A stretch of DNA of 64,000 bases, from the NCBI GenBank assembly GCA_910574715.1, contig CAJTCH010000002.1, positions 1 through 64,000 of the forward strand, read 5' to 3'. Below, one piece after another: positions 6,549 through 18,174 of this stretch; position 1 is the stretch's first letter, and the number at the start of each line of letters is the position of its first letter. The position numbers were made by a program, and so were the translations under genes. The notes under the pieces are model-generated. The model searched no databases. It saw only the letters and a list, made by a program, of their open reading frames with translations, and was not told the origin of the DNA. This DNA is from Lachnospiraceae bacterium. Its GTDB lineage: Bacteria; Bacillota; Clostridia; Lachnospirales; Lachnospiraceae.

Positions 6549-7196
6549 ATGTATGCTAAGTTTTTTAAGCGTTTCTTGGATTTTATATTGAGCTTGTGTG
6601 CAGTGATTGTGTTATCTCCATTGCTGATGATACTTATAATTCTCGGCTTTGTATTCATGCGTGGCAATCCATTCTTTTACCAAGAACGCCCAGGTAAGAA
6701 TGAAAAAATTTTCAGGCTTATCAAATTCCGATCTATGGATAATCGAAAAGATAAAAATGGTAAATTGTTGCCAGACGAAGTACGACTTAATAAGTATGGA
6801 AGGTTTTTGCGCTCAACATCGCTTGATGAACTGCCTGAACTTATTAATATAATTAAAGGTGATATGTCCATCATCGGTCCACGTCCGTTACTTCCTAGGG
6901 ATGTCGCATATATGAACAAAAATCAACTTTGTAGACATTCTGTTAGTCCCGGACTTACTGGACTGGCACAGTGTACGGGTCGCAACTCTTTTGATTGGGA
7001 TAAAAAATTAGCAACAGATGTTGAGTATGTAGATAATTTATCTTTTGTTTTAGATATCAAGATTTTTTTAAAAACAATCTTGAAAGTAGTGAAAAGAGAA
7101 GATGTTGAATTTGTTGAAGTGGAAGATATGGATCTTAAAGACTGGAATGAGTTGAAAAAACGAAAGGCAGAGGAAAATGGCGTTAAAAGTATATAG
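6549..7196 (+). CDS. PglC-like undecaprenyl-phosphate sugar-1-phosphate transferase
   Basis: A 215-residue monotopic phosphoglycosyl transferase that would start the repeat unit by moving a sugar-1-phosphate from a UDP-sugar to undecaprenyl phosphate. It has one N-terminal hydrophobic reentrant segment (about 10-37), then the conserved RPGKNEKIFRLIKFRSM, the catalytic Asp-Glu pair in SLDELPEL (D93, E94) and IIGPRPLLP. Its length equals the small, catalytic-domain-only class. The 3' end overlaps the next gene by 20 bases, so they are translationally linked. The preceding aminotransferase suggests an amino-sugar substrate. Confidence 0.92.
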   Translation: MYAKFFKRFLDFILSLCAVIVLSPLLMILIILGFVFMRGNPFFYQERPGKNEKIFRLIKFRSMDNRKDKNGKLLPDEVRLNKYGRFLRSTSLDELPELINIIKGDMSIIGPRPLLPRDVAYMNKNQLCRHSVSPGLTGLAQCTGRNSFDWDKKLATDVEYVDNLSFVLDIKIFLKTILKVVKREDVEFVEVEDMDLKDWNELKKRKAEENGVKSI

Positions 7197-8214
7197 CCTT
7201 GAACAATGTGAAGAATGGGACTCAATAGTTCGTTCTTTCCATGATTATGATACATACTGGCTAAGTGGTTATGTAAAAGCATTTCGAATTCATGGCGATG
7301 GTGAACCGTTACTATTCTTTTATGAAAACAAAAGTGTTCGTGGAATCAATGTTGTGATGAAACGTGATGTTTCAAAAGATCAACACTTTGTAGGAAAGAT
7401 TGAAGAAAACCTATATTTTGATTTTTCAAGTCCATATGGTTACGGCGGATGGATTATTGAAGGTGATAAAAGTGATGCACTCTTTGAAGCATATGAAAAT
7501 TGGTGTGTGAATAATGGTATCATCAGTGAATTTATAAGATTCCATCCAGTTTTAGAGAATTATAAAGCATGTGCGAGCAACTATGAAGTTGTACCATTAG
7601 GAAATACTGTGGTCATGGATCTTTCTTCACCTGAAGTTATTTGGAACAACATCATAAGTAAAAATCGGAATATGCTTCGGAAGGCCAAGAAGAATGGAGT
7701 TGTTATCTATTCTGGACGTTACCCAGAAATTTATAAGACATTTAGAGAGATATATAACTCTACAATGGATAAAGATAATGCCAAAGATTATTATTACTTT
7801 AGTGAAGAATTTTATCAAAGCATTTTAAATGATTTGCAGCAAAATGCACAGGTATTTTATGCGGTGTATGAAGGTAAAATTATCGCAGCGTCTATTATGC
7901 TAGCAGCAAATGGTTACATGAATTATCATCTTTCTGGTTCGATCAAAGAGTACGCAAACTTGGCACCGACAAATCTGCTTCTATATAAGGCCGCTTTGTG
8001 GGGATGTGCGAATGGTTGTTGTTCATTGTATCTTGGTGGCGGTGTTGGAAGCGGAGAAGATAGCCTTTATAAGTTTAAAAAGGCATTTTACAGATTAGAT
8101 GATGTGAAGCGATTCCATATCGGAAAGAAGATATTTATTCAGGACAAGTATGATGAACTTTTGGGTTTTAGGGAATCTGTTGATAGCAGATTTTTCCCAA
8201 AGTATAGAGCATAG
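7177..8214 (+). CDS. FemAB-like / GNAT-fold acyl or aminoacyl transferase
   Basis: A 345-residue protein with the FemAB-type double GNAT layout. An N-terminal half (SSPYGYGGWII, about 85-95) is followed by a second half with NRNMLRKAKKNGV and YEGKIIAASIMLAANGYMNY. Relatives in polysaccharide clusters are thought to decorate a sugar with an acyl or amino-acid group. It starts inside the end of the PglC-like gene, with GAGGAAA as ribosome site. Because it follows an aminotransferase and the initiating transferase, N-acylation of the new amino group is a reasonable guess; the donor cannot be told. Confidence 0.65.
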   Translation: MALKVYSLEQCEEWDSIVRSFHDYDTYWLSGYVKAFRIHGDGEPLLFFYENKSVRGINVVMKRDVSKDQHFVGKIEENLYFDFSSPYGYGGWIIEGDKSDALFEAYENWCVNNGIISEFIRFHPVLENYKACASNYEVVPLGNTVVMDLSSPEVIWNNIISKNRNMLRKAKKNGVVIYSGRYPEIYKTFREIYNSTMDKDNAKDYYYFSEEFYQSILNDLQQNAQVFYAVYEGKIIAASIMLAANGYMNYHLSGSIKEYANLAPTNLLLYKAALWGCANGCCSLYLGGGVGSGEDSLYKFKKAFYRLDDVKRFHIGKKIFIQDKYDELLGFRESVDSRFFPKYRA

Positions 8215-8225
8215 GAAGTAATGAC

Positions 8226-9440
8226 ATGAATATTTTATTTTTAAGCCTTGAAGTGTTCAAATCAATAAATGAATCAAATATGTATGCTGATATTCTTCGG
8301 GAATTTACAAGGGATGGACACTTTGTTTGCGCTATTTCTCCAGTCGAGAGACGGTATAAAGGTAATACGGAATTAGTAAATGAGAATAATAGTAAATTAT
8401 TGAGGCTCAAAATCGGCAATATCCAAAAAACTAATTTGTTTGAAAAGGGTATTTCCACATTGGCGGTTGAGCAACAGTATATTAATGGGATTAAAAAATA
8501 TTTCTCTAATGCTAAGTTTGATCTAGTTCTCTATGCCACCCCTCCAATAACTTTTTGTAAAGTAATTGAGTATATCAAAAAAAGGGACGGAGCATTTGCG
8601 TATCTTATGTTGAAAGACATTTTTCCTCAAAATGCTGTTGATCTTGGAATATTTGATAAGACAGGGCCTTCATGGATTATTTATAAGTATTTTAGAAAGA
8701 AAGAAACAAAATTATATGATTTATCTGACAAGATAGGTTGTATGAGTTTAGCGAATGTTGAGTATATTCATAAAAATAATCCTCAGGTTTCACCAGAAAA
8801 AATTGAGGTTTGCCCGAATTGTATCGAAGTGATAGATAAATCTGTTGATGAGGAGACAAGGAACTCTATTAGGATAAAATATAACGTAGCGCTTGATAAA
8901 AGAATTTTTGTGTATGGCGGAAATCTTGGAAAACCACAAGGAATACCATTTTTAATCGAGTGCATAGAAAGTCAGAGAGAGAATCCTAGAGTTTTTTTTC
9001 TCGTTGTTGGTGATGGAACAGAATACTCAATATTAGAGGAGTATGCTAAAAAACAGAATCAGGAAAATTTCAAATTGATGAAAAGATTACCTAAGGAAGA
9101 CTATGATACTTTAGTTGCGGCATGCGATGTTGGAATGCTATTCCTTGATCATAGATTTACTATACCTAATTTTCCTAGCAGATTGCTTTCTTATATGCAA
9201 GCTAAGTTACCTGTTCTCGTTTGTACTGATCCGAATACAGATGTTGGTAAAATTGCTGAAGATGGTGAGTTTGGTTGGTGGTGCGAAAGCAACTCTGTTG
9301 GCAATTTAAAAAAAGTGGTGGAGAAAGTTTTACAAAGCAATCTTTCTCAAATGGGTAACAATGCTATAGAATACCTTAAAAAATACTATTCTAGCAAAAA
9401 AGCATATAGTGTGATAATAGATTCTTTGAAGGAAAAGTAA
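8226..9440 (+). CDS. GT4-family glycosyltransferase (WbuB-like)
   Basis: A 404-residue GT-B glycosyltransferase. The C-terminal nucleotide-sugar domain shows FVYGGNLGKPQGIPFLIEC, a VVGDG loop and FPSRLLSYMQAKLPVL near the end, typical of GT4. Relatives of this length include WbuB-type enzymes that transfer L-FucNAc. Since fnlABC at 18-21.7 kb make UDP-L-FucNAc, that donor is plausible but not shown. RBS AGGAAG precedes ATG 8226. It is AT-rich like the rest of the cassette. Confidence 0.82.
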   Translation: MNILFLSLEVFKSINESNMYADILREFTRDGHFVCAISPVERRYKGNTELVNENNSKLLRLKIGNIQKTNLFEKGISTLAVEQQYINGIKKYFSNAKFDLVLYATPPITFCKVIEYIKKRDGAFAYLMLKDIFPQNAVDLGIFDKTGPSWIIYKYFRKKETKLYDLSDKIGCMSLANVEYIHKNNPQVSPEKIEVCPNCIEVIDKSVDEETRNSIRIKYNVALDKRIFVYGGNLGKPQGIPFLIECIESQRENPRVFFLVVGDGTEYSILEEYAKKQNQENFKLMKRLPKEDYDTLVAACDVGMLFLDHRFTIPNFPSRLLSYMQAKLPVLVCTDPNTDVGKIAEDGEFGWWCESNSVGNLKKVVEKVLQSNLSQMGNNAIEYLKKYYSSKKAYSVIIDSLKEK

Positions 9441-9444
9441 GGTA

Positions 9445-10557
9445 GTGAAAAAAGTCATGAAGATATTAATAATTAACTCTGTGTGCGGAATTAAAAGTAC
9501 AGGAAGGATAGCTGCATCCATGGCCGAAAGTTTTATAAAAAATGGTGATAAAGCAGTAGTAGCTTTTGGAAGGGAGCAAGTTCCATATAAATATAAAGAT
9601 ATTTCATATAGGATATGCAGCGAAATAACAGTTAAGGTAAATGCATTACAGACGAGAGTTTTTGATAGTGATGGTTTTACATCTAATCACGCCACAGCCA
9701 AATTCTTAAAATGGGCTGATAATTATAATCCGGATTTACTTTGGTTACATAATTTACATGGATATTATATAAATGTGGAAATGCTTTTCAAATGGATAAA
9801 ATCTCGTCCTAAGATGCAAGTTAATTGGACATTGCATGATTGTTGGTCATTTACAGGACATTGCTCTTATTACACGTATGCACATTGCAATAAATGGATG
9901 AAACAATGTTATGATTGTAAACAAAAACGGGAGTATCCAGCAAGTTTTTTTCGAGATGCAAGTTATGCTAATTATTTGAAAAAAAAAGAATTATTTACAG
10001 GAGTAGAAAAAATGAGTTTAATCACTCCTTCTAAATGGCTTGCAAATGAAGTGAAAAAGAGCTTTTTAAAAGATTATAGTATTGAAGTTGTATATAATAC
10101 AATTGATACTTCTATTTTTAAGCCTACGCCGAGTAATATAAAGACAAGACTTCGAATCCCGGATAAAAAAATGATTCTTGGAGTAGCAGCTCAATGGCAA
10201 CTGATTAAGGGATGGTATGATTTTATAAAACTTGCAGATATGATTGACCATTCTTATGTAATAGTACTTGTGGGAGTTACAAAAGAACAGAAAAAAGAAT
10301 TACCTTGCAATGTTATTGGTATTGAAAGAACGGCTAATACAATGGAATTAGCCAAAATCTATACCGCTGCAGATGTGTTTGTCAACCCAACTTACGAGGA
10401 TAACTATCCAACGACGAATTTAGAGGCGCAGGCATGTGGGACGCCTTGTATCACATATAGAACTGGTGGAAGCGTAGAAAGCGTCAAGCAGGAGAATATT
10501 ATTGAAGTTGGTAATGTTCATGCTTTGTGGTTGAAAATAAAAGAAATAGTAGATTGA
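9445..10557 (+). CDS. GT4-family glycosyltransferase (colanic-acid WcaC-like)
   Basis: A 370-residue GT-B glycosyltransferase. Landmarks are the N-terminal Gly/Ser-rich loop ILIINSVCGIKSTGRIA, an unusual Cys/His-rich stretch (LHDCWSFTGHCSYYTYA with CNKW and CYDCKQ, about 132-157) seen in this subfamily, and the GT4 signature VNPTYEDNYPTTNLEAQACG near the C-terminus. It would add one sugar to the growing lipid-linked unit. GTG 9445 has GAAGGAAAAG upstream; ATG 9457 is an alternative start. Four bases separate it from the preceding gene, consistent with one operon. Confidence 0.85.
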   Translation: MKKVMKILIINSVCGIKSTGRIAASMAESFIKNGDKAVVAFGREQVPYKYKDISYRICSEITVKVNALQTRVFDSDGFTSNHATAKFLKWADNYNPDLLWLHNLHGYYINVEMLFKWIKSRPKMQVNWTLHDCWSFTGHCSYYTYAHCNKWMKQCYDCKQKREYPASFFRDASYANYLKKKELFTGVEKMSLITPSKWLANEVKKSFLKDYSIEVVYNTIDTSIFKPTPSNIKTRLRIPDKKMILGVAAQWQLIKGWYDFIKLADMIDHSYVIVLVGVTKEQKKELPCNVIGIERTANTMELAKIYTAADVFVNPTYEDNYPTTNLEAQACGTPCITYRTGGSVESVKQENIIEVGNVHALWLKIKEIVD

Positions 10558-10583
10558 GACAATAATGGTGAAGGATTTTGTTT

Positions 10584-11678
10584 ATGTATAAAATAGAACC
10601 TGTTTTTTGGGTATTCCCTTCAATTTGCTTGCTTTTTTCTTTTGATAAAAGAAGAAATTCAAGATTAAGATTTTGGTTTATAACAATTTTATTTATATTA
10701 TTTTATTCGTTTTCCTTAAACGGAGCAGATTATGAAGGGTATAATTCGCTATTTGAAGAAGTGCTAGTTGGTTCATCAATTAGAGAAATTCACGGAGAAC
10801 TTGGATATGGATTACTAATGGTCTTTGCCCAAAAAATAGGAATGGATTATCAAATTTTTAGAATAGTTCTACTAAGTGTTACGTCAGTAGTATTGTTTTC
10901 TATGTTATATAAAATGTCACCTAATTTTCCTCTTTCTGTATTTTTTTTCACATCTCTTTTTATCATATATGCAATTTCTGCATATAGACAATATATTGTA
11001 ATGGCTTTTTCTTTAGTATGGATATATGAATTTGTTAAAGGTAATGCGAGAAAGGCAATTGTTGGATTAGTTGGATTGCTTTTTTTTCACATAACTGCAA
11101 TTATTCCATTGGCCTTTGTTTTAATTTATAAGTCTATGAGAGAACGACAGACAACAAGCATAAAAATATTTGTGGATAAAAATGGAATCATATTCATTGC
11201 AGTAGTATTTTTGCTTAGAATTTTTAATTTCTATATTTTAAAAATTAGTATTGTAAATAGTGTCTTAGGGATAATTATATCAAACAGAGCTGATATTAAT
11301 CCAACACTATTTTCAGCTGGATTGGCTTCAAGAACAATATTTTTATTCTTTATTGTGATTTTGTTTCAGTATAAATCAAGTAATGATAAGTTGTTGATGC
11401 TGTTGTTCGGTTGCTACTATATAGGAATGACTCTGTATATTGCAGTTCCTTTGGAATTCTTTATGGGACGATTGATGAATAGCGTAAATGTTTTGTCTAC
11501 AATAATTGTTCCGTATATGGTGTATAGACACCATGATGATAGATTCTTGGGCAGCACAGTTGCTTCTAGCAATAGGATTGTTTTAAGCATTCTCATCATT
11601 GTTTCATATGTTATTCTTTTCAATCAATTGTCCAATCAAATTGGATATACCCCTTATACCAATTATTTGTTTGGGTAG
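10584..11678 (+). CDS. EpsG-family polysaccharide polymerase (Wzy-like)
   Basis: A 364-residue integral membrane protein with about ten hydrophobic segments. It shows the EpsG-family feature GADYEGYNSLFEE after the second segment and the motif FFFTSLFIIYAISAYRQYIVMA-like region in the middle (about residues 126-147). EpsG/Wzy proteins join lipid-linked repeat units on the outer face of the membrane. ATG 10584 is chosen with AAGGA (10571-10575) upstream; a TTG at 10578 is the alternative. It is directly followed by the flippase, as expected for a Wzx/Wzy-dependent locus. Confidence 0.8.
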   Translation: MYKIEPVFWVFPSICLLFSFDKRRNSRLRFWFITILFILFYSFSLNGADYEGYNSLFEEVLVGSSIREIHGELGYGLLMVFAQKIGMDYQIFRIVLLSVTSVVLFSMLYKMSPNFPLSVFFFTSLFIIYAISAYRQYIVMAFSLVWIYEFVKGNARKAIVGLVGLLFFHITAIIPLAFVLIYKSMRERQTTSIKIFVDKNGIIFIAVVFLLRIFNFYILKISIVNSVLGIIISNRADINPTLFSAGLASRTIFLFFIVILFQYKSSNDKLLMLLFGCYYIGMTLYIAVPLEFFMGRLMNSVNVLSTIIVPYMVYRHHDDRFLGSTVASSNRIVLSILIIVSYVILFNQLSNQIGYTPYTNYLFG

Positions 11679-12980: not shown

Positions 12981-13781
12981 ATGAGAATTATAAATATTGA
13001 AGAAAAAAAACAATTGATGCTGGATATGCTTGTCGAGATTGATACGTTCTGTAGGGAAAAGGATATAAAGTATTTTTTGGCAGGAGGGACACTTATCGGA
13101 GCTGTTAGACATAAGGGATTTATTCCATGGGATGATGATGCTGATATAGCTTTATTAAGATGTGACTATGAAAGATTAGTTTCTAGTTTTAAAAGTAAAT
13201 CTGGAAATATTGAAATAAGGGACTTTAGGAATAATCATGATTATATTTGGCCATCTGCAAAATTTATACATAATAAGACTGTTCTTATAGAAAATAACAA
13301 TAAAAAATCGTCTATAGGGGTATTTATTGATGTATTTCCATTAGATAATGTTTATGGAAATAAACAAGCAGTAATAAAATATCAAAGAAAAGTATTGTTA
13401 TGGAAGAATATCCTTAATGTAAAGTATATTCCTTTGTCGAAGGATAGAAAATGGTATAAGAACGGGGTAATTGCTATGAGTAGAATACTGCGATTATTAC
13501 CTAATAAGGTGATTCTAAAGATAATTCATAATTTAAGTACTAAATACGATAATTATATTGGATGTACATATATATGTTCGTTTTCCGGAGCATGGGGAAA
13601 AAAGGAGATTTCAGAAAAAGAGTTATTTAGTAATGTGGTTGAGTGCCAGTTTGAAAACCATAATTTTTTTATTCCACAAGGATATGATAAATTTTTGACA
13701 AATATATATGGAGATTATATGACACCGCCGCCTGTAGAAAAGAGAATGAGTACCCATAAGTCAATTGAGTATTGGAAATAA
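12981..13781 (+). CDS. LicD-family phospho-group transferase
   Basis: A 266-residue LicD protein with the diagnostic nucleotidyltransferase-like motif LAGGTLIGAVRHKGFIPWDD (about 33-52) and DDDAD (51-55). LicD enzymes transfer phosphorylcholine from CDP-choline to glycans, and the related fukutin/FKRP proteins transfer ribitol phosphate from CDP-ribitol. No choline uptake or activation genes are nearby. Instead an IspD/TarI-like cytidylyltransferase and two sugar-phosphate enzymes follow. That makes a CDP-polyol or CDP-deoxy-sugar donor the better guess. It belongs to the AT-rich cassette. Confidence 0.88.
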   Translation: MRIINIEEKKQLMLDMLVEIDTFCREKDIKYFLAGGTLIGAVRHKGFIPWDDDADIALLRCDYERLVSSFKSKSGNIEIRDFRNNHDYIWPSAKFIHNKTVLIENNNKKSSIGVFIDVFPLDNVYGNKQAVIKYQRKVLLWKNILNVKYIPLSKDRKWYKNGVIAMSRILRLLPNKVILKIIHNLSTKYDNYIGCTYICSFSGAWGKKEISEKELFSNVVECQFENHNFFIPQGYDKFLTNIYGDYMTPPPVEKRMSTHKSIEYWK

Positions 13782-13834
13782 AAATATTTTGAAAGTAATA
13801 AGAACTAATACCTTAATAAAAAGGAATAGAAATA

Positions 13835-13927
13835 TTGACTACCATTCTGCGACTGAATAAATATGGTTTATTACCAATGATAAGAGTCCGGGGCGGTAGT
13901 ATATTGTTATTCCTAAGGTTATTATAA
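13835..13927 (+). pseudogene. Possible small gene remnant in LicD-IspD gap
   Basis: In the 160-base gap between licD-like and ispD-like genes a 30-codon reading frame starts at TTG 13835 after AAGGAA and reads TTILRLNKYGLLPMIRVRGG before a hydrophobic end and TAA at 13925. It looks like coding sequence, but I cannot assign a family. It may be the head of a lost transferase gene, or chance. Confidence 0.3.
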
Positions 13928-13953
13928 ACAAAATAGAAGGGATGATAAAATTT

Positions 13954-14673
13954 ATGAAAAATATTGCTTTGATTATTGGCGGCGGAGTTGGAGCTAGAAT
14001 GCATCAGGATATTCCTAAACAATTTATTAATGTAAAGGATGTGCCGGTGATTATTTACACATTAAGAGCATTTCAACAACATCCTAATGTTGATGCTATA
14101 GAAGTTGTTTGTCTTGATGGTTGGCATGATATTTTAAGAGCCTATGCTAAACAGTTTGGTATAACTAAACTTGAAAACATAGTTTCAGGAGGAGAAACGG
14201 GACTTCAATCTATTAGAAATGGGCTATATGATATTGCTAAAAGATATGATGGAGACGATGATATTGTTTTAATACATGATGCTATCAGACCTCTGGTTAG
14301 TCAAGATATTATTTCCGATAATATTAGAGTTTGTAGAAAATATGGGAATGCAATTACAGTTATCCCGTGTACGGCTGTTATGCTTAAAACAATGAATAGC
14401 ATTACTTCAGAAGAGCAGATTCCGAGAGACAACTTAAAGATTACACAAACACCACAGACTTTTTTTTTATATGATATTCTTGCAGCGCATAAGGAAGCGA
14501 TAGAAAAAGGGATAAATGACTCAATTGCATCTTGTTCTCTTTATGTTGAACTTGAAAAGAAATTGTATCTTTCAATAGGCTCAGAGAAAAACATTAAACT
14601 TACAACATCTGAAGACATGGAAATTTTTTCAGCGTTACTTGAAACAACATGCCCTGATTGGATGAGAAAATAA
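13954..14673 (+). CDS. IspD/TarI-like cytidylyltransferase
   Basis: A 239-residue nucleotidyltransferase of the IspD/TarI family, which makes CDP-methylerythritol or CDP-ribitol from CTP and a polyol phosphate. Visible motifs are ALIIGGGVGARMHQDIPKQF (the CTP-binding loop, about 4-23), VLIHDAIRPLV and ITQTPQTF. It sits with LicD upstream and RpiB-like, DXS-like and SDR genes downstream. This points to a CDP-activated capsule building block rather than isoprenoid synthesis. ATG 13954 is preferred, with AGAAGG 12-13 bases upstream; ATG 13942 would be too close to it. Confidence 0.88.
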   Translation: MKNIALIIGGGVGARMHQDIPKQFINVKDVPVIIYTLRAFQQHPNVDAIEVVCLDGWHDILRAYAKQFGITKLENIVSGGETGLQSIRNGLYDIAKRYDGDDDIVLIHDAIRPLVSQDIISDNIRVCRKYGNAITVIPCTAVMLKTMNSITSEEQIPRDNLKITQTPQTFFLYDILAAHKEAIEKGINDSIASCSLYVELEKKLYLSIGSEKNIKLTTSEDMEIFSALLETTCPDWMRK

Positions 14674-14680
14674 GGAGATT

Positions 14681-15166
14681 ATGATGAGAGTAGCATTGGC
14701 AAGTGATAGAAATGGATTAGATTATAAAAACAGATTGATCCAGCATTTAAAATATAATGGATATGAACCAATTGATGTTGGAACCTATGAGAATGTACCA
14801 TGTGATACACCGGTTTTTGCTATGAAAGCCGGTAAATTGGTTGCCATGGGTGATTGTAAATATGGAATCTTAATTTGTGCTACTGGTACTGGAATGGTTA
14901 TGGCAGCAAATAAAATAAAAGGTGTACTATGTGGTATGGGATATGCTGATTTAGTGACACAACATATGCGTCAGCATAATGATGCGAATATGATTGCGTT
15001 TGGTCAGAAACATATGGGATATGAAGATGTTGAGCACAGAGTTGATATCTTTTTAACAACGGATTTTGTAGGATTACATCATGCACCACGAGTACAGCAG
15101 ATTAGAGATCTTGAAGAGAATAAAGAAATACATCAGACTCCTATTATGAATCCAAATTGGAAATGA
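14681..15166 (+). CDS. RpiB/LacAB-family sugar-phosphate isomerase
   Basis: A 161-residue protein of the RpiB/LacA/LacB family, which interconverts aldose and ketose phosphates (for example ribose-5-P and ribulose-5-P). The key RpiB features are present: ASDRNGLDYK at the N-terminus, the catalytic Cys66 in LICATGTGM and the phosphate-binding RQHNDANMIAFG. It is 7 bases after the IspD-like gene and overlaps the region before the DXS-like gene. Inside this cassette it probably provides a pentose-phosphate precursor for the CDP-activated compound. Confidence 0.85.
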   Translation: MMRVALASDRNGLDYKNRLIQHLKYNGYEPIDVGTYENVPCDTPVFAMKAGKLVAMGDCKYGILICATGTGMVMAANKIKGVLCGMGYADLVTQHMRQHNDANMIAFGQKHMGYEDVEHRVDIFLTTDFVGLHHAPRVQQIRDLEENKEIHQTPIMNPNWK

Positions 15167-15180
15167 GAGGTAAAAGAAGG

Positions 15181-16944
15181 ATGATTATTGAAAAAATAAA
15201 TAGTCCTGATAACCTTAAAAGGTTATCGGATGATGAACTACATACTTTAACATCAGAAATAAGAACTGCTCTAATTACTAAAATGAGTAAATTGGGGGGA
15301 CATATGGCATCAAATCTAGGAGTTGTTGAAATTACTGTTGCTCTTCATAAGGTATTTAATTCTCCAATTGATAAAATTATATTTGATGTATCACACCAGT
15401 CCTATGTGCATAAGATTTTAACAGGTAGAAAAGAAGCATTTTTATATGAAGAACATTTTGAAGATGTCTCTGGATATAGTAATCCGGAGGAAAGTAGTCA
15501 TGATTTCTTTAATATTGGACATACCTCAACTTCAATAAGTTTGGCTTGTGGAATGGCAAAAGCTAGAGATTTGAAGGGAGACAATGAAAATATTATTGCA
15601 GTTATAGGAGATGCTTCGTTGGATGGTGGAGAAGCTTTTGAAGCCTTAAATTATGCCAAGGAATTACACAGTGGCTTGATTGTTGTTTTGAATGATAACA
15701 ATATGTCTATTCCTGAAAATTATGGTGGTTTACATGATTTATTGAATACTTTAAGAACAAATCGTGGACAGGTCGAAAATAACTTTTTTAGCTCACTTGG
15801 GTTTGAATATAAATTTGTGCAAGATGGTCATAATCTATGTGAATTACTTGAAGTTTTTGAAAGTGTGAAGGATACTGATCATCCAGTTGTAGTTCATTGT
15901 TGCACACAAAAAGGTAAGGGGTATAAGTTTGCCGAAGAAGAAAAAGAGAAGTGGCATTGGGCTCACCCATTCAATATTGAAACTGGTGAATATATAAGCG
16001 GTGTACCTGAAGAAAACTATGGTGCTATAGTGGCTGAATATCTTCTTAAAAAGATGCAATCAGACAAAGATGTTGTCGTAGTAGCTGCTTCAACACCGTT
16101 ATGTATTGGCTTTAATGCTGATAGACGAAAATTGGCAGGAAAGCAATTTGTTGATGTTGGTATTGCTGAACAAAATGCACTATCTATGACAGCAGCAATT
16201 GCTAAAAGAGGAGGTAAGCCAGTATTTGCAACAAATAGTACATTTTATCAAAGAGGTTATGATCAGATTGAGCAGGAAATGTGTATCACAAAATGTCCTG
16301 CAACAATGATTCTTTCACATGCTTCTGTTTGGGGGCATACAAATGATACTCATGTAGGATTATATGATATTGCTTTATTTGCAAATGTACCAAATCTTAC
16401 TTACCTTGCCCCTACAAATTGTGAAGAATATATTGCGATGTTGGATTGGAGTATTGAACAACAGGAGATTCCTGTCGCAATAAGAATTCCCTGGACTAAA
16501 GTACATCATGCTGAAAATTCTGTTAGAAATGACTATTCTGATACTAAATATGAAGTGACAAAAGTTGGTTCACAAGTAGCTATAATTGCATTAGGAAGTT
16601 TTTACCAAATCGGGGAAGCAGTTGTTAAACTGTTAAAAGACAAAGGGATAAATGCTACGTTGATTAACCCTTTGTTTATTTCCGGAATTGATGGTGAGAC
16701 TTTGGATAATTTGAAGGATCATCATGAACTGGTTATAACTCTTGAAGATGGGATTATTAATGGTGGTTTTGGTGCTAAGATTGCTCAATACTATAGTTTA
16801 TCTCCTATAAAAGTTATGAATAAGGCATTTTCAATGAATATTCCAAGTAGATATATTCCAGATGACTTAATGAGAAAAAATCGTTTACTTCCAGTTCAGA
16901 TTGTTGAAGATATTATTGGTATAGTCGGAGGCAGAGACGAATGA
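15181..16944 (+). CDS. DXS-like transketolase-family enzyme (TPP-dependent)
   Basis: A 587-residue, single-chain protein with the 1-deoxyxylulose-5-phosphate synthase layout. The TPP domain has LGGHMASNLGVVEITVALH, DVSHQSYVHKILTGR, GHTSTSIS and a TPP/Mg site reading GDASLDGGEAFEALNYA with LNDNNMSI, where DXS usually has GDG. The pyrimidine and C-terminal domains follow (DVGIAEQNALSMTAAIA, LEDGIINGGFGAKIA). The region between the two His motifs differs from standard DXS. It probably makes a keto-sugar phosphate for the cassette product rather than supplying isoprenoids, because it lies among capsule genes. ATG 15181 is set by GAGAGG (15165-15170). Confidence 0.8.
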   Translation: MIIEKINSPDNLKRLSDDELHTLTSEIRTALITKMSKLGGHMASNLGVVEITVALHKVFNSPIDKIIFDVSHQSYVHKILTGRKEAFLYEEHFEDVSGYSNPEESSHDFFNIGHTSTSISLACGMAKARDLKGDNENIIAVIGDASLDGGEAFEALNYAKELHSGLIVVLNDNNMSIPENYGGLHDLLNTLRTNRGQVENNFFSSLGFEYKFVQDGHNLCELLEVFESVKDTDHPVVVHCCTQKGKGYKFAEEEKEKWHWAHPFNIETGEYISGVPEENYGAIVAEYLLKKMQSDKDVVVVAASTPLCIGFNADRRKLAGKQFVDVGIAEQNALSMTAAIAKRGGKPVFATNSTFYQRGYDQIEQEMCITKCPATMILSHASVWGHTNDTHVGLYDIALFANVPNLTYLAPTNCEEYIAMLDWSIEQQEIPVAIRIPWTKVHHAENSVRNDYSDTKYEVTKVGSQVAIIALGSFYQIGEAVVKLLKDKGINATLINPLFISGIDGETLDNLKDHHELVITLEDGIINGGFGAKIAQYYSLSPIKVMNKAFSMNIPSRYIPDDLMRKNRLLPVQIVEDIIGIVGGRDE

Positions 16945-17981
16945 AATATACAAAGATAGAGTACGAAGAATTAGTAAAATATATTAATAATAATAATGAT
17001 TTTAGCAAATCTTTGGAGAATAAAACAATCTTAATTACCGGCTCAAAAGGGTTAGTAGGAACTGCACTTGTTAAATGGATACTTGTACAGAATGAAATTA
17101 AAAAATCTAATACTCATATTATCGGCTCTACTCGCAATCCAGAGTATATTCCAGAGTATATTGAAGAGCACGATAGTATAGAGTATTGCAAGTGTGGAAC
17201 AGAACTAATACTGACACAGCAGATTGATTATATAGTGCATGCAGCATCTCCTACAGGAAATCAATATCATATGCAGCATCCAGTAGAAACGTTTAGAACA
17301 AATGTTGATGGTATGGAACAAATGCTAGAATTGACACAGAAAAATGAAGGCTGTTCTTTAATTTATTTATCCTCAGAAGAGATATATGGATTATCTTCGG
17401 ACGATTCCCCTGCAATGACTGAAGATATGGTTGGAGCAATTGATAGTTTAAATTTAAGAAATTGCTATCCTCTTGGGAAAAAGGCATCGGAATTTTTATG
17501 TCATGCTTCGGCAGAGGAATTTGGTCTTGATGCAAAGATTATCAGACCAACAGTTATTCACGGTTTATTTCAAAGATATGACGAGCCAAGAGTTGTAAAT
17601 GAACTTTTGAGATGCATTATAGAGAATAAAGATTTTGTAATGAAGTCTGATGGAATGACAAAAAAATGTTTGATGTATTCGTTGGATGCAATATCTGCTA
17701 TATTCACAGTTCTGTTTAAGGGTGAAAAGGGTGAAGCATATAATGCATCTAATCCAGAAACATTTATAACAGTAAGAGATTTGGCAAATCATTTATTCAA
17801 TAAGTTTAATCCTAATATTAAAGTTGTTTTTGCTGAGAACCAGGCAAAGAAGACTGATGGATTTCTACCACATCGTACATTGGTTCAAGATTGTACAAAA
17901 CTGAGATCTCTAGGTTGGAAACCTAAAACAAATTTAGATCATATTTATGAAATTGATATCAAGAGGTTTTTAAAATGCTAA
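16941..17981 (+). CDS. Extended-SDR nucleotide-sugar epimerase/dehydratase
   Basis: A 346-residue extended short-chain dehydrogenase. The NAD-binding motif is TGSKGLVGTAL (about 33-43), the core strand reads VHAASPTG, and the catalytic pair is YPLGK (YxxxK). Residues 1-28 form an extra N-terminal helix region typical of some capsule-locus members. Related proteins oxidise, dehydrate or epimerise NDP-sugars. Its start overlaps the end of the DXS-like gene by four bases (ATGA), so the two are co-translated. It probably acts on the CDP-linked product of this module; the reaction is unknown. Confidence 0.78.
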   Translation: MKYTKIEYEELVKYINNNNDFSKSLENKTILITGSKGLVGTALVKWILVQNEIKKSNTHIIGSTRNPEYIPEYIEEHDSIEYCKCGTELILTQQIDYIVHAASPTGNQYHMQHPVETFRTNVDGMEQMLELTQKNEGCSLIYLSSEEIYGLSSDDSPAMTEDMVGAIDSLNLRNCYPLGKKASEFLCHASAEEFGLDAKIIRPTVIHGLFQRYDEPRVVNELLRCIIENKDFVMKSDGMTKKCLMYSLDAISAIFTVLFKGEKGEAYNASNPETFITVRDLANHLFNKFNPNIKVVFAENQAKKTDGFLPHRTLVQDCTKLRSLGWKPKTNLDHIYEIDIKRFLKC

Positions 17982-18009
17982 AAGAATTAAGGCGGAAGTT
18001 GTAATCTAA

Positions 18010-18072
18010 ATGTTTGGCGTCAAGAAAGAAGACATCAGGGTTATTGGAATCCATCATGGTGAGAAGCTGTAA
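18010..18072 (+). pseudogene. Fragment of an FnlA/CapE-type epimerase C-terminal region
   Basis: The reading MFGVKKEDIRVIGIHHGEKL followed by TAA corresponds to LFGDTGTQIIGTRHGEKL inside the intact FnlA-like protein encoded at 18175. Only ~20 codons remain and the frame is broken on both sides. It lies in the 193-base gap at the right edge of the AT-rich cassette. I read it as the relic of a second fnlA-type gene left by cassette exchange. The rest of the gap (18073-18174) shows nothing I recognise. Confidence 0.7.
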
Positions 18073-18174
18073 ATCATGGTATGCTCCATTGAATATGTAT
18101 GCATACAGTAGCCAGGTCAATGGTTGTATTGAGAACAAAATCGTTGAAAAAACTTTTATAGAGGAGAATAGATT

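Follow-up and report, generated by a model that had tools for sequence, protein, structure and literature searches.

Why does a glycan locus of a Lachnospiraceae bacterium keep relatives of DXS and IspD close together? The first 64,000 nucleotides of contig CAJTCH010000002.1 (GenBank assembly GCA_910574715.1), hereafter the window, hold a LicD-family phosphotransferase gene followed by genes for an IspD-like cytidylyltransferase, an RpiB-like isomerase, a DXS-like thiamine diphosphate (ThDP) enzyme and a short-chain dehydrogenase/reductase (SDR). A preliminary description had proposed that these five genes form a route to a capsule precursor activated with cytidine diphosphate (CDP). They are present as described, head to tail on the plus strand, with families that are clear by Pfam:

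12981-13781, plus strand: LicD-family phosphotransferase (PF04991, LicD, E=2.8e-48); exchangeable part of the cassette
13942-14673, plus strand: IspD-like cytidylyltransferase (PF01128, IspD, E=8.3e-34); core
14681-15166, plus strand: RpiB-like sugar-phosphate isomerase (PF02502, LacAB_rpiB, E=9.1e-40); core
15157-16944, plus strand: DXS-like ThDP enzyme of the PRK12315 type (DXP_synthase_N, E=3.9e-88); core position, filled by an acetolactate synthase (ALS)-like enzyme in loci L103 and L106
16941-17981, plus strand: SDR, proposed CDP-ketose reductase (Epimerase Pfam family, E=1.8e-30); core

On balance, the comparisons below suggest that this cassette probably makes a CDP-activated, pyruvate-extended sugar alcohol (a CDP-1-deoxy-alditol) for a capsule- or teichoic-acid-like surface glycan. 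The activities outlined in the preliminary description (isomerase, ThDP carboligase, activation by cytidine triphosphate (CTP), reductase and phosphotransferase) are kept in this reading as predictions. Three things support them: the set recurs in eight loci, the SDR is akin to a known CDP-ketose reductase, and the ThDP enzyme has been swapped in nature. Plain 1-deoxy-D-xylulose 5-phosphate (DXP) is disfavoured as the product.

A four-gene core that recurs

The cassette is more than a chance neighbourhood, because it recurs in other genomes: genes for the IspD-like, RpiB-like and ThDP enzymes and the SDR lie together in eight distinct loci (the window, L101-L106 and L168). The conserved core is made up of these four genes, LicD being one of two transferase types. 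Gene order varies, running LicD-IspD-RpiB-X-SDR in L103 and PF04464-SDR-RpiB-X-IspD in L106 (X being the ALS-like gene) and RpiB-IspD-SDR-DXS in L168.

Within the genus (12 genomes sampled) the window was joined by one more cassette, in genome G636, and within the class (391 genomes) by that of G995 (L168). An SDR query of 392 genomes of the order matched 25 at 1e-45, all but the window's own at 38% identity or less, and an SDR-alignment scan of a collection of 84,980 species returned 61 relatives, six of them at least 53% identical (L101-L106) and the next at 35%. Two of these six, L102 (in G636) and L104 (in G181, the same as L044), had already been met in the smaller samples. The collection scan used two SDR peptide patterns and missed L168, so that eight is a minimum count of cassettes.

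The DXS-like protein is far less telling as a query. Among 299 genomes of the family, 24 (the window's own included) match it with at least 480 bits; one genome has two such genes, and of the 24 loci besides the window only L044 carries IspD, RpiB and SDR genes. The PRK12315 clade was therefore rejected as a marker of the cassette. In the 23 loci where the DXS-like gene stands alone, tblastn at 1e-8 found neither IspD nor RpiB nor SDR (0/23 for each), although several of these contigs are short; one locus, L047, has an ALS-like gene nearby. The other control, 22 loci outside the cassettes in which an IspD gene lies within about 2.5 kb of a related SDR gene, has no RpiB, DXS-like or ALS-like gene in any case (0/22, with the same tblastn threshold); L112 was not counted here, its IspD gene lying on the opposite strand at a distance of 5.7 kb.

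Some cassettes carry further genes downstream. An intact gene resembling AraD (L-ribulose-5-phosphate 4-epimerase) follows the second LicD and SDR genes of L103 (12020-12715); it is broken in L104 (10050-10730) and a remnant in L101 (10203-10526), and no trace of it was found between the window SDR and the next gene. These AraD-like genes suggest a larger ancestral cassette, and as a guess AraD may once have set the configuration at C4. The idea that AraD replaces RpiB in L103 was dropped, since RpiB is present there. Downstream in L105 lie two fragments (10139-11081 and 11324-11572) of what looks like a decayed additional SDR gene, and a short CTP_transf_like open reading frame (ORF).

Two ThDP enzyme families in one position

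The strongest argument that the ThDP step is part of the pathway, and that it is a carboligation, comes from nature's own replacement of the enzyme: six of the eight loci have a DXS-like protein in this position and two, L103 and L106, an ALS-like one, so that two ThDP families fill a single slot. The proteins of L103 and L106 have TPP_enzyme_N, M and C domains and are not DXS-like; acetolactate synthase is their best NCBIfam match (347 and 363 bits against a cut-off of 538) and, for L103, also the best match in the PDB. They are 54% identical to each other and, by eye, keep GDG and NN. Both families decarboxylate a 2-keto acid, typically pyruvate, and pass the resulting two-carbon unit to a carbonyl with formation of a carbon-carbon bond; the swap thus points to the chemistry that the DXS-like and ALS-like families have in common.

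Proximity of an ALS-like gene to a related SDR gene is unremarkable by itself: it occurs in 14 of 55 non-cassette SDR loci, none of which has IspD. Such pairs are seen in L113, L129, L140, L141, L145, L147, L151, L152 and L155; loci of this kind include Bacteroidota and Ignavibacteriota and are perhaps YerE-type branching systems.

The SDR as a relative of a CDP-ketose reductase

The best solved relatives of the window SDR, 8v4g and 8v4h (131.6 bits; 145 bits by profile), are structures of HS5.17, which reduces CDP-6-D-fructose to CDP-6-D-glucitol according to the accessible text of its description (PMC10918830). In a 64-row tree, made by a quick, short search and with HS5.17 and L137 on long branches, all nine cassette SDRs, two of them from L103, fall into a single clade (SH-aLRT 100). 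This clade is nested in a group of 18 rows (99), of which HS5.17 and eight IspD-linked SDRs make up the rest; other IspD-linked SDRs fall outside that group. L109 has an IspD gene, yet it is labelled "none" in this tree and was left out of the IspD-linked group in the residue comparison. The register of that comparison was set by the residues quoted for HS5.17, all of which matched. R56, R164, Y167, K171 and L296 are kept in all nine cassette SDRs and E140, R208 and T98 in eight, while all nine have D212E and R233K. As far as the alignment can tell, the reductase core is kept and the sugar end is changed.

The preliminary description had left open whether the SDR reduces or epimerises; reduction is the better supported of the two. 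A dehydratase, suggested by a Glu-Glu pair, is not favoured: two of the nine proteins, those of L106 (Met-Asp) and L168 (Val-Glu), are without the first Glu.

A DXS-like enzyme with altered phosphate-site residues

The DXS-like protein of the window matches NF008968 over its full length (824 bits) and PDB entry 9kpq with 705 bits. In a tree, the six cassette copies group together (99/99) next to the 21 stand-alone ones (94/86), with seven canonical DXS set apart (100/100). The departure from GDG to GDA, remarked on in the preliminary description, holds throughout: the residue is Ala in 6/6 cassette copies against Gly in 21/21 stand-alone relatives and 7/7 canonical enzymes. All 34 aligned rows retain the IAE Glu, the Asn of the ThDP-binding motif GDG...N and the FHG His, which we take by its motif to be the residue in contact with the pyruvate adduct; the Asp of GDx is invariant in a separate alignment. 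We therefore rejected the idea that GDA marks a dead enzyme; according to the part of the review available to us (PMC12247030), a YerE-like enzyme from nature whose motif reads CDG instead of GDG does have activity.

Greater change is seen where canonical enzymes hold the phosphate of glyceraldehyde 3-phosphate (GAP). The DXP synthase of Mycobacterium tuberculosis is described in the accessible text as using Tyr387, Arg415, His426 and Lys473 (PMC9068908), and we placed these columns by spacing (28, 11 and 46 residues in the canonical DXS of the window's genome against 28, 11 and 47 in the paper's numbering). Canonical enzymes read Y, R, H, R in 7/7, whereas the six cassette copies have Asn (five) or Gly (one), His (five) or Phe (one), His (six) and Trp (six), so that three of the four ligands differ. 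The stand-alone copies are intermediate, with Tyr in 7/21, the first Arg in 0/21, His in 21/21 and the last Arg or Lys in 2/21. Residues invariant in, and restricted to, the cassette copies include A153 (of GDA), D156, H394, which sits in what was the phosphate loop, and W446 (H394 and W446 being counted from the TTG start), and a 36-residue stretch of canonical DXS is missing from all nine PRK12315-type rows of one alignment. Our reading of these changes is that the donor chemistry was probably kept while the acceptor site was rebuilt, partly before the cassette arose. With the phosphate ligands lost, plain DXP is disfavoured as the product. The stand-alone PRK12315-type genes (L045-L067, 23 loci) are called DXP synthase in databases, and four of them have internal stops.

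Isomerase, cytidylyltransferase and transferases

Cys66 and the RQHND motif noted earlier are indeed present in the window RpiB-like protein. The seven cassette RpiB proteins that were aligned (L103 left out) keep Cys66, Thr68, HN and the C-terminal Arg, and all seven have His10 replaced by Arg and Gly67 by Ala. The capacity to bind phosphate seems preserved, and the probable substrate is therefore a sugar phosphate of similar length. RpiB is found only in the company of the ThDP enzyme (8/8 cassettes against 0/22 IspD+SDR loci without one), which suggests that it makes the aldehyde acceptor.

The IspD-like protein is 26% identical to the best-scoring IspD of its genome and scores under the NCBIfam cut-offs both for IspD and for ribitol-5-phosphate cytidylyltransferase (for the latter, 139.3 bits against 166 with the D-ribitol-5-phosphate cytidylyltransferase model NF001183).

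A LicD or PF04464 gene lies within 6 kb in 8/8 cassettes and 19/22 other IspD+SDR loci, against 0/23 stand-alone DXS loci; the queries of this proximity search included seven of the eight cassette transferases, and the family calls rest on Pfam, which assigns LicD to the window, L102 and L103 and PF04464 to L101, L104, L105, L106 and L168. CDP-glycerol glycerophosphotransferases give PF04464 its name, and LicD enzymes are known to transfer phosphate-linked groups from CDP donors, so that a CDP-polyol product is likely. LicD is the probable transferase of the activated unit in the window, as had been proposed, although it is an exchangeable part rather than a member of the conserved core.

Setting of the cassette

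By the listed starts, 7 bases separate the IspD-like and RpiB-like genes, while the RpiB-like and DXS-like genes overlap by 10 bases and the DXS-like and SDR genes by 4; the LicD gene ends 160 bases upstream of the IspD-like gene. The DXS-like ORF starts with TTG, an ATG following 24 bases further in. GC content is low at the cassette locus (0.31-0.39 at 4-18 kb against 0.50-0.58 at 24-40 kb). Beyond the cassette lie FnlA-like, WbcJ-like and WecB-like genes, all three scoring below NCBIfam cut-offs. Between the SDR and the FnlA-like gene, at 17982-18174, one frame resembles by eye a piece of the FnlA-like protein, with a motif ending in HHGEKL and then a stop; the fragment sits where GC content jumps and is possibly the scar of a cassette exchange.

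Paralogues elsewhere in the genome

The preliminary description would have been refuted had the DXS-like and IspD-like genes been the only dxs and ispD of the genome, but they are not. A canonical dxs lies on contig C43 and ispC on C17, and three further IspD-family loci exceed the cut-off (C90, C41 and C11), C90 with the best score. A canonical dxs is likewise present in all seven other cassette genomes searched, in partial form in G636. Besides the window there are two RpiB-family loci (C51 and C19), one with an ordinary RpiB sequence and the other following ORFs that by eye resemble dihydroxyacetone kinase subunits.

On C41, a second glycan locus (L068) has an IspD-like gene (7798-8514) adjoining an SDR gene (6726-7787), whose products are 50% and 27% identical to those of the cassette; no RpiB or ThDP enzyme match was found in the 16.5 kb examined. 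This is likely a simpler CDP-alditol pair.

Proposed pathway and alternatives

What the sequences show directly is which genes are present, that they recur, that the ThDP enzyme is swapped, that residues have changed and that the SDR is akin to HS5.17; each reaction below, with its substrate and its place in the order, is inferred. The RpiB-like isomerase would convert a ketose phosphate to an aldose phosphate. The ThDP enzyme would decarboxylate pyruvate and add the two-carbon unit to the aldehyde of that aldose, giving a 1-deoxy-2-ketose phosphate, which the IspD-like enzyme would couple to cytidine monophosphate. The SDR would then reduce the methyl ketone to yield a CDP-1-deoxy-alditol, and LicD, or the PF04464 enzyme in five other loci, would pass the deoxy-alditol phosphate to the surface glycan. 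Activation could also precede carboligation, in which case the acceptor of the ThDP enzyme would be a CDP-linked aldehyde. A pentose 5-phosphate acceptor would lead to a 1-deoxyheptulose 7-phosphate, and ribose 5-phosphate thus to a 1-deoxyheptitol, while GAP would lead to a 1-deoxypentitol; the chain length is our inference.

Several observations weigh against this scheme. The scores of the ALS-like proteins do not reach the cut-off for acetolactate synthase, so that their donor is uncertain, and members of both ThDP families can take 2-keto acids other than pyruvate, or ketones as acceptors. The scheme does not account for the AraD-like gene, intact or decayed, of three loci. The first Arg of the phosphate site is missing from 21/21 stand-alone DXS-like proteins too, so that its loss predates the cassette and is not explained by it. 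In the SDR, Q196 is replaced by V, S or C in 9/9 cassette proteins, at a position where 21/21 IspD-linked SDRs carry Q, R, H or Y; 9/9 also differ at S100 and at F226, and 8/9 each at N34 and at K60. Because Q196, N34, S100 and F226 are changed, the substrate should differ from CDP-fructose; Gln196 of HS5.17 contacts the C3' and C4' hydroxyls in the accessible account of that enzyme (PMC10918830).

A plain CDP-pentitol (ribitol, arabinitol or xylitol) made by RpiB, the IspD-like enzyme and the SDR, with the ThDP enzyme only supplying a pentulose phosphate by transketolase-like ketol transfer, is unlikely, if worth keeping in mind. The 22 IspD+SDR loci without a ThDP enzyme, where LicD and PF04464 are common, indicate that the CDP-alditol part works alone, and the DXS-like proteins weakly match transketolase models; yet replacement by an ALS-like enzyme is at odds with ketol transfer, and none of those 22 loci needs a ThDP enzyme or RpiB. 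We give a somewhat lower chance to a branched polyol, in which the acetyl unit would go onto the ketone of a CDP-ketopentose obtained through RpiB and the SDR would reduce the acetyl carbonyl. The ALS-like genes of 14/55 non-cassette SDR loci speak for it, and loss of the phosphate ligands would suit a CDP-linked acceptor, but DXS-type enzymes are known for aldehyde acceptors. YerE does work on a CDP-linked ketone, but DXS is not named among the ketone-accepting ThDP enzymes in the available part of the review (PMC12247030).

The isomerase might instead act after the carboligase: the ThDP enzyme would make DXP or a similar compound, and the RpiB-like enzyme would move the carbonyl of that compound from C2 to C3, activation and reduction coming later. 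Since a 1-deoxy-2-ketose resembles a C1-methylated aldose, such an enediol shift is conceivable, and it would accord with RpiB occurring only alongside the ThDP enzyme (8/8 against 0/22). It needs GAP as acceptor despite the lost phosphate ligands, however, and we know of no RpiB-family enzyme that shifts a carbonyl from C2 to C3, so we regard it as very unlikely. As for the question with which we began, family names and a DXS-like protein above the NCBIfam DXP synthase cut-offs could suggest second copies of methylerythritol phosphate pathway genes, providing extra isoprenoid or cofactor supply. This is scarcely probable: canonical dxs, ispC and ispD sit elsewhere in the genome, the IspD-like protein does not reach the equivalog cut-offs for IspD, the DXS-like enzyme has lost phosphate-site residues and the setting is a glycan locus with an SDR and transferases. 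An isoprenoid role, already thought unlikely in the preliminary description, is thus not favoured.

Comparison with known systems

For the CDP-1-deoxy-alditol that we prefer, known pathways offer partial precedents. The TarI/ISPD pathway of CDP-ribitol uses LicD-fold or PF04464 transferases and has no ThDP enzyme. The cassette would share with it CTP activation of an alditol unit and transfer of LicD or TagF/TarF type, but differs in its ThDP enzyme, in the proposed reduction after activation and in an IspD-like protein below the ribitol-5-phosphate cytidylyltransferase cut-off. Also related are the CDP-6-D-glucitol pathway of Campylobacter jejuni HS:5 (HS5.18 and HS5.17) and the CDP-mannitol pathway of Streptococcus pneumoniae 35A (Mnp1 and Mnp2), in which, as far as the accessible text describes them, a ketose is coupled with CTP and then reduced to the open-chain CDP-alditol (PMC10918830). 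We propose the same order for the cassette, where an IspD-family gene likewise adjoins an HS5.17-group SDR gene. Those pathways get by with two enzymes, starting from a ketose phosphate supplied by central metabolism, and include neither RpiB nor a ThDP enzyme. The cassette adds both in 8/8 loci, and its SDRs, without an equivalent of Gln196, form a clade of their own.

Addition of a pyruvate-derived two-carbon unit to a CDP-keto-sugar by YerE is described for yersiniose branching in the available part of the review (PMC12247030), and in the accessible text on paulomycin biosynthesis a ThDP-made acetyl branch is reduced by an aldo-keto reductase (PMC4753412). As proposed for the cassette, a ThDP enzyme in YerE systems adds pyruvate carbon to a surface-glycan precursor and the acetyl carbonyl is reduced later; the YerE acceptor is the ring ketone of a CDP-dideoxyhexose, however, while RpiB and IspD in the cassette point to an open-chain sugar phosphate or its CDP derivative. 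The window ThDP enzyme is moreover DXS-like, and where the enzyme is ALS-like, in L103 and L106, its gene sits with IspD and RpiB instead of a CDP-3,6-dideoxy-4-keto-hexose pathway. From other PRK12315-type "DXP synthases" the cassette copy differs by its GDA motif, its cassette-only residues and its CDP-alditol neighbours.

Narrow searches of the open-access literature found no description of such a pathway. What the present comparison adds to the preliminary description is a recurrent four-gene core, exchangeability of both the transferase and the ThDP enzyme, an SDR that appears akin to a CDP-ketose reductase and a GAP-phosphate site that, by alignment, is mostly lost. It is a serious possibility, though somewhat short of probable, that the cassette represents a new class of building block, chain-extended 1-deoxy-alditols such as CDP-1-deoxyheptitol, made by ThDP- and pyruvate-dependent carbon-carbon bonding inside a CDP-alditol pathway, with two ThDP families recruited separately and the PRK12315-type "DXP synthases" being misnamed carboligases with acceptors other than GAP. 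The natural swap of the two families makes this directly testable, as both enzymes should give the same product. If the proposal is right, some gut Clostridia would lengthen a sugar phosphate with pyruvate in modular fashion and attach a phosphate-linked deoxy-polyol to their surface glycans; glycan chemistry would become predictable from the genes, a misleading dxs annotation would be corrected and ThDP carboligases with new acceptors would be supplied.

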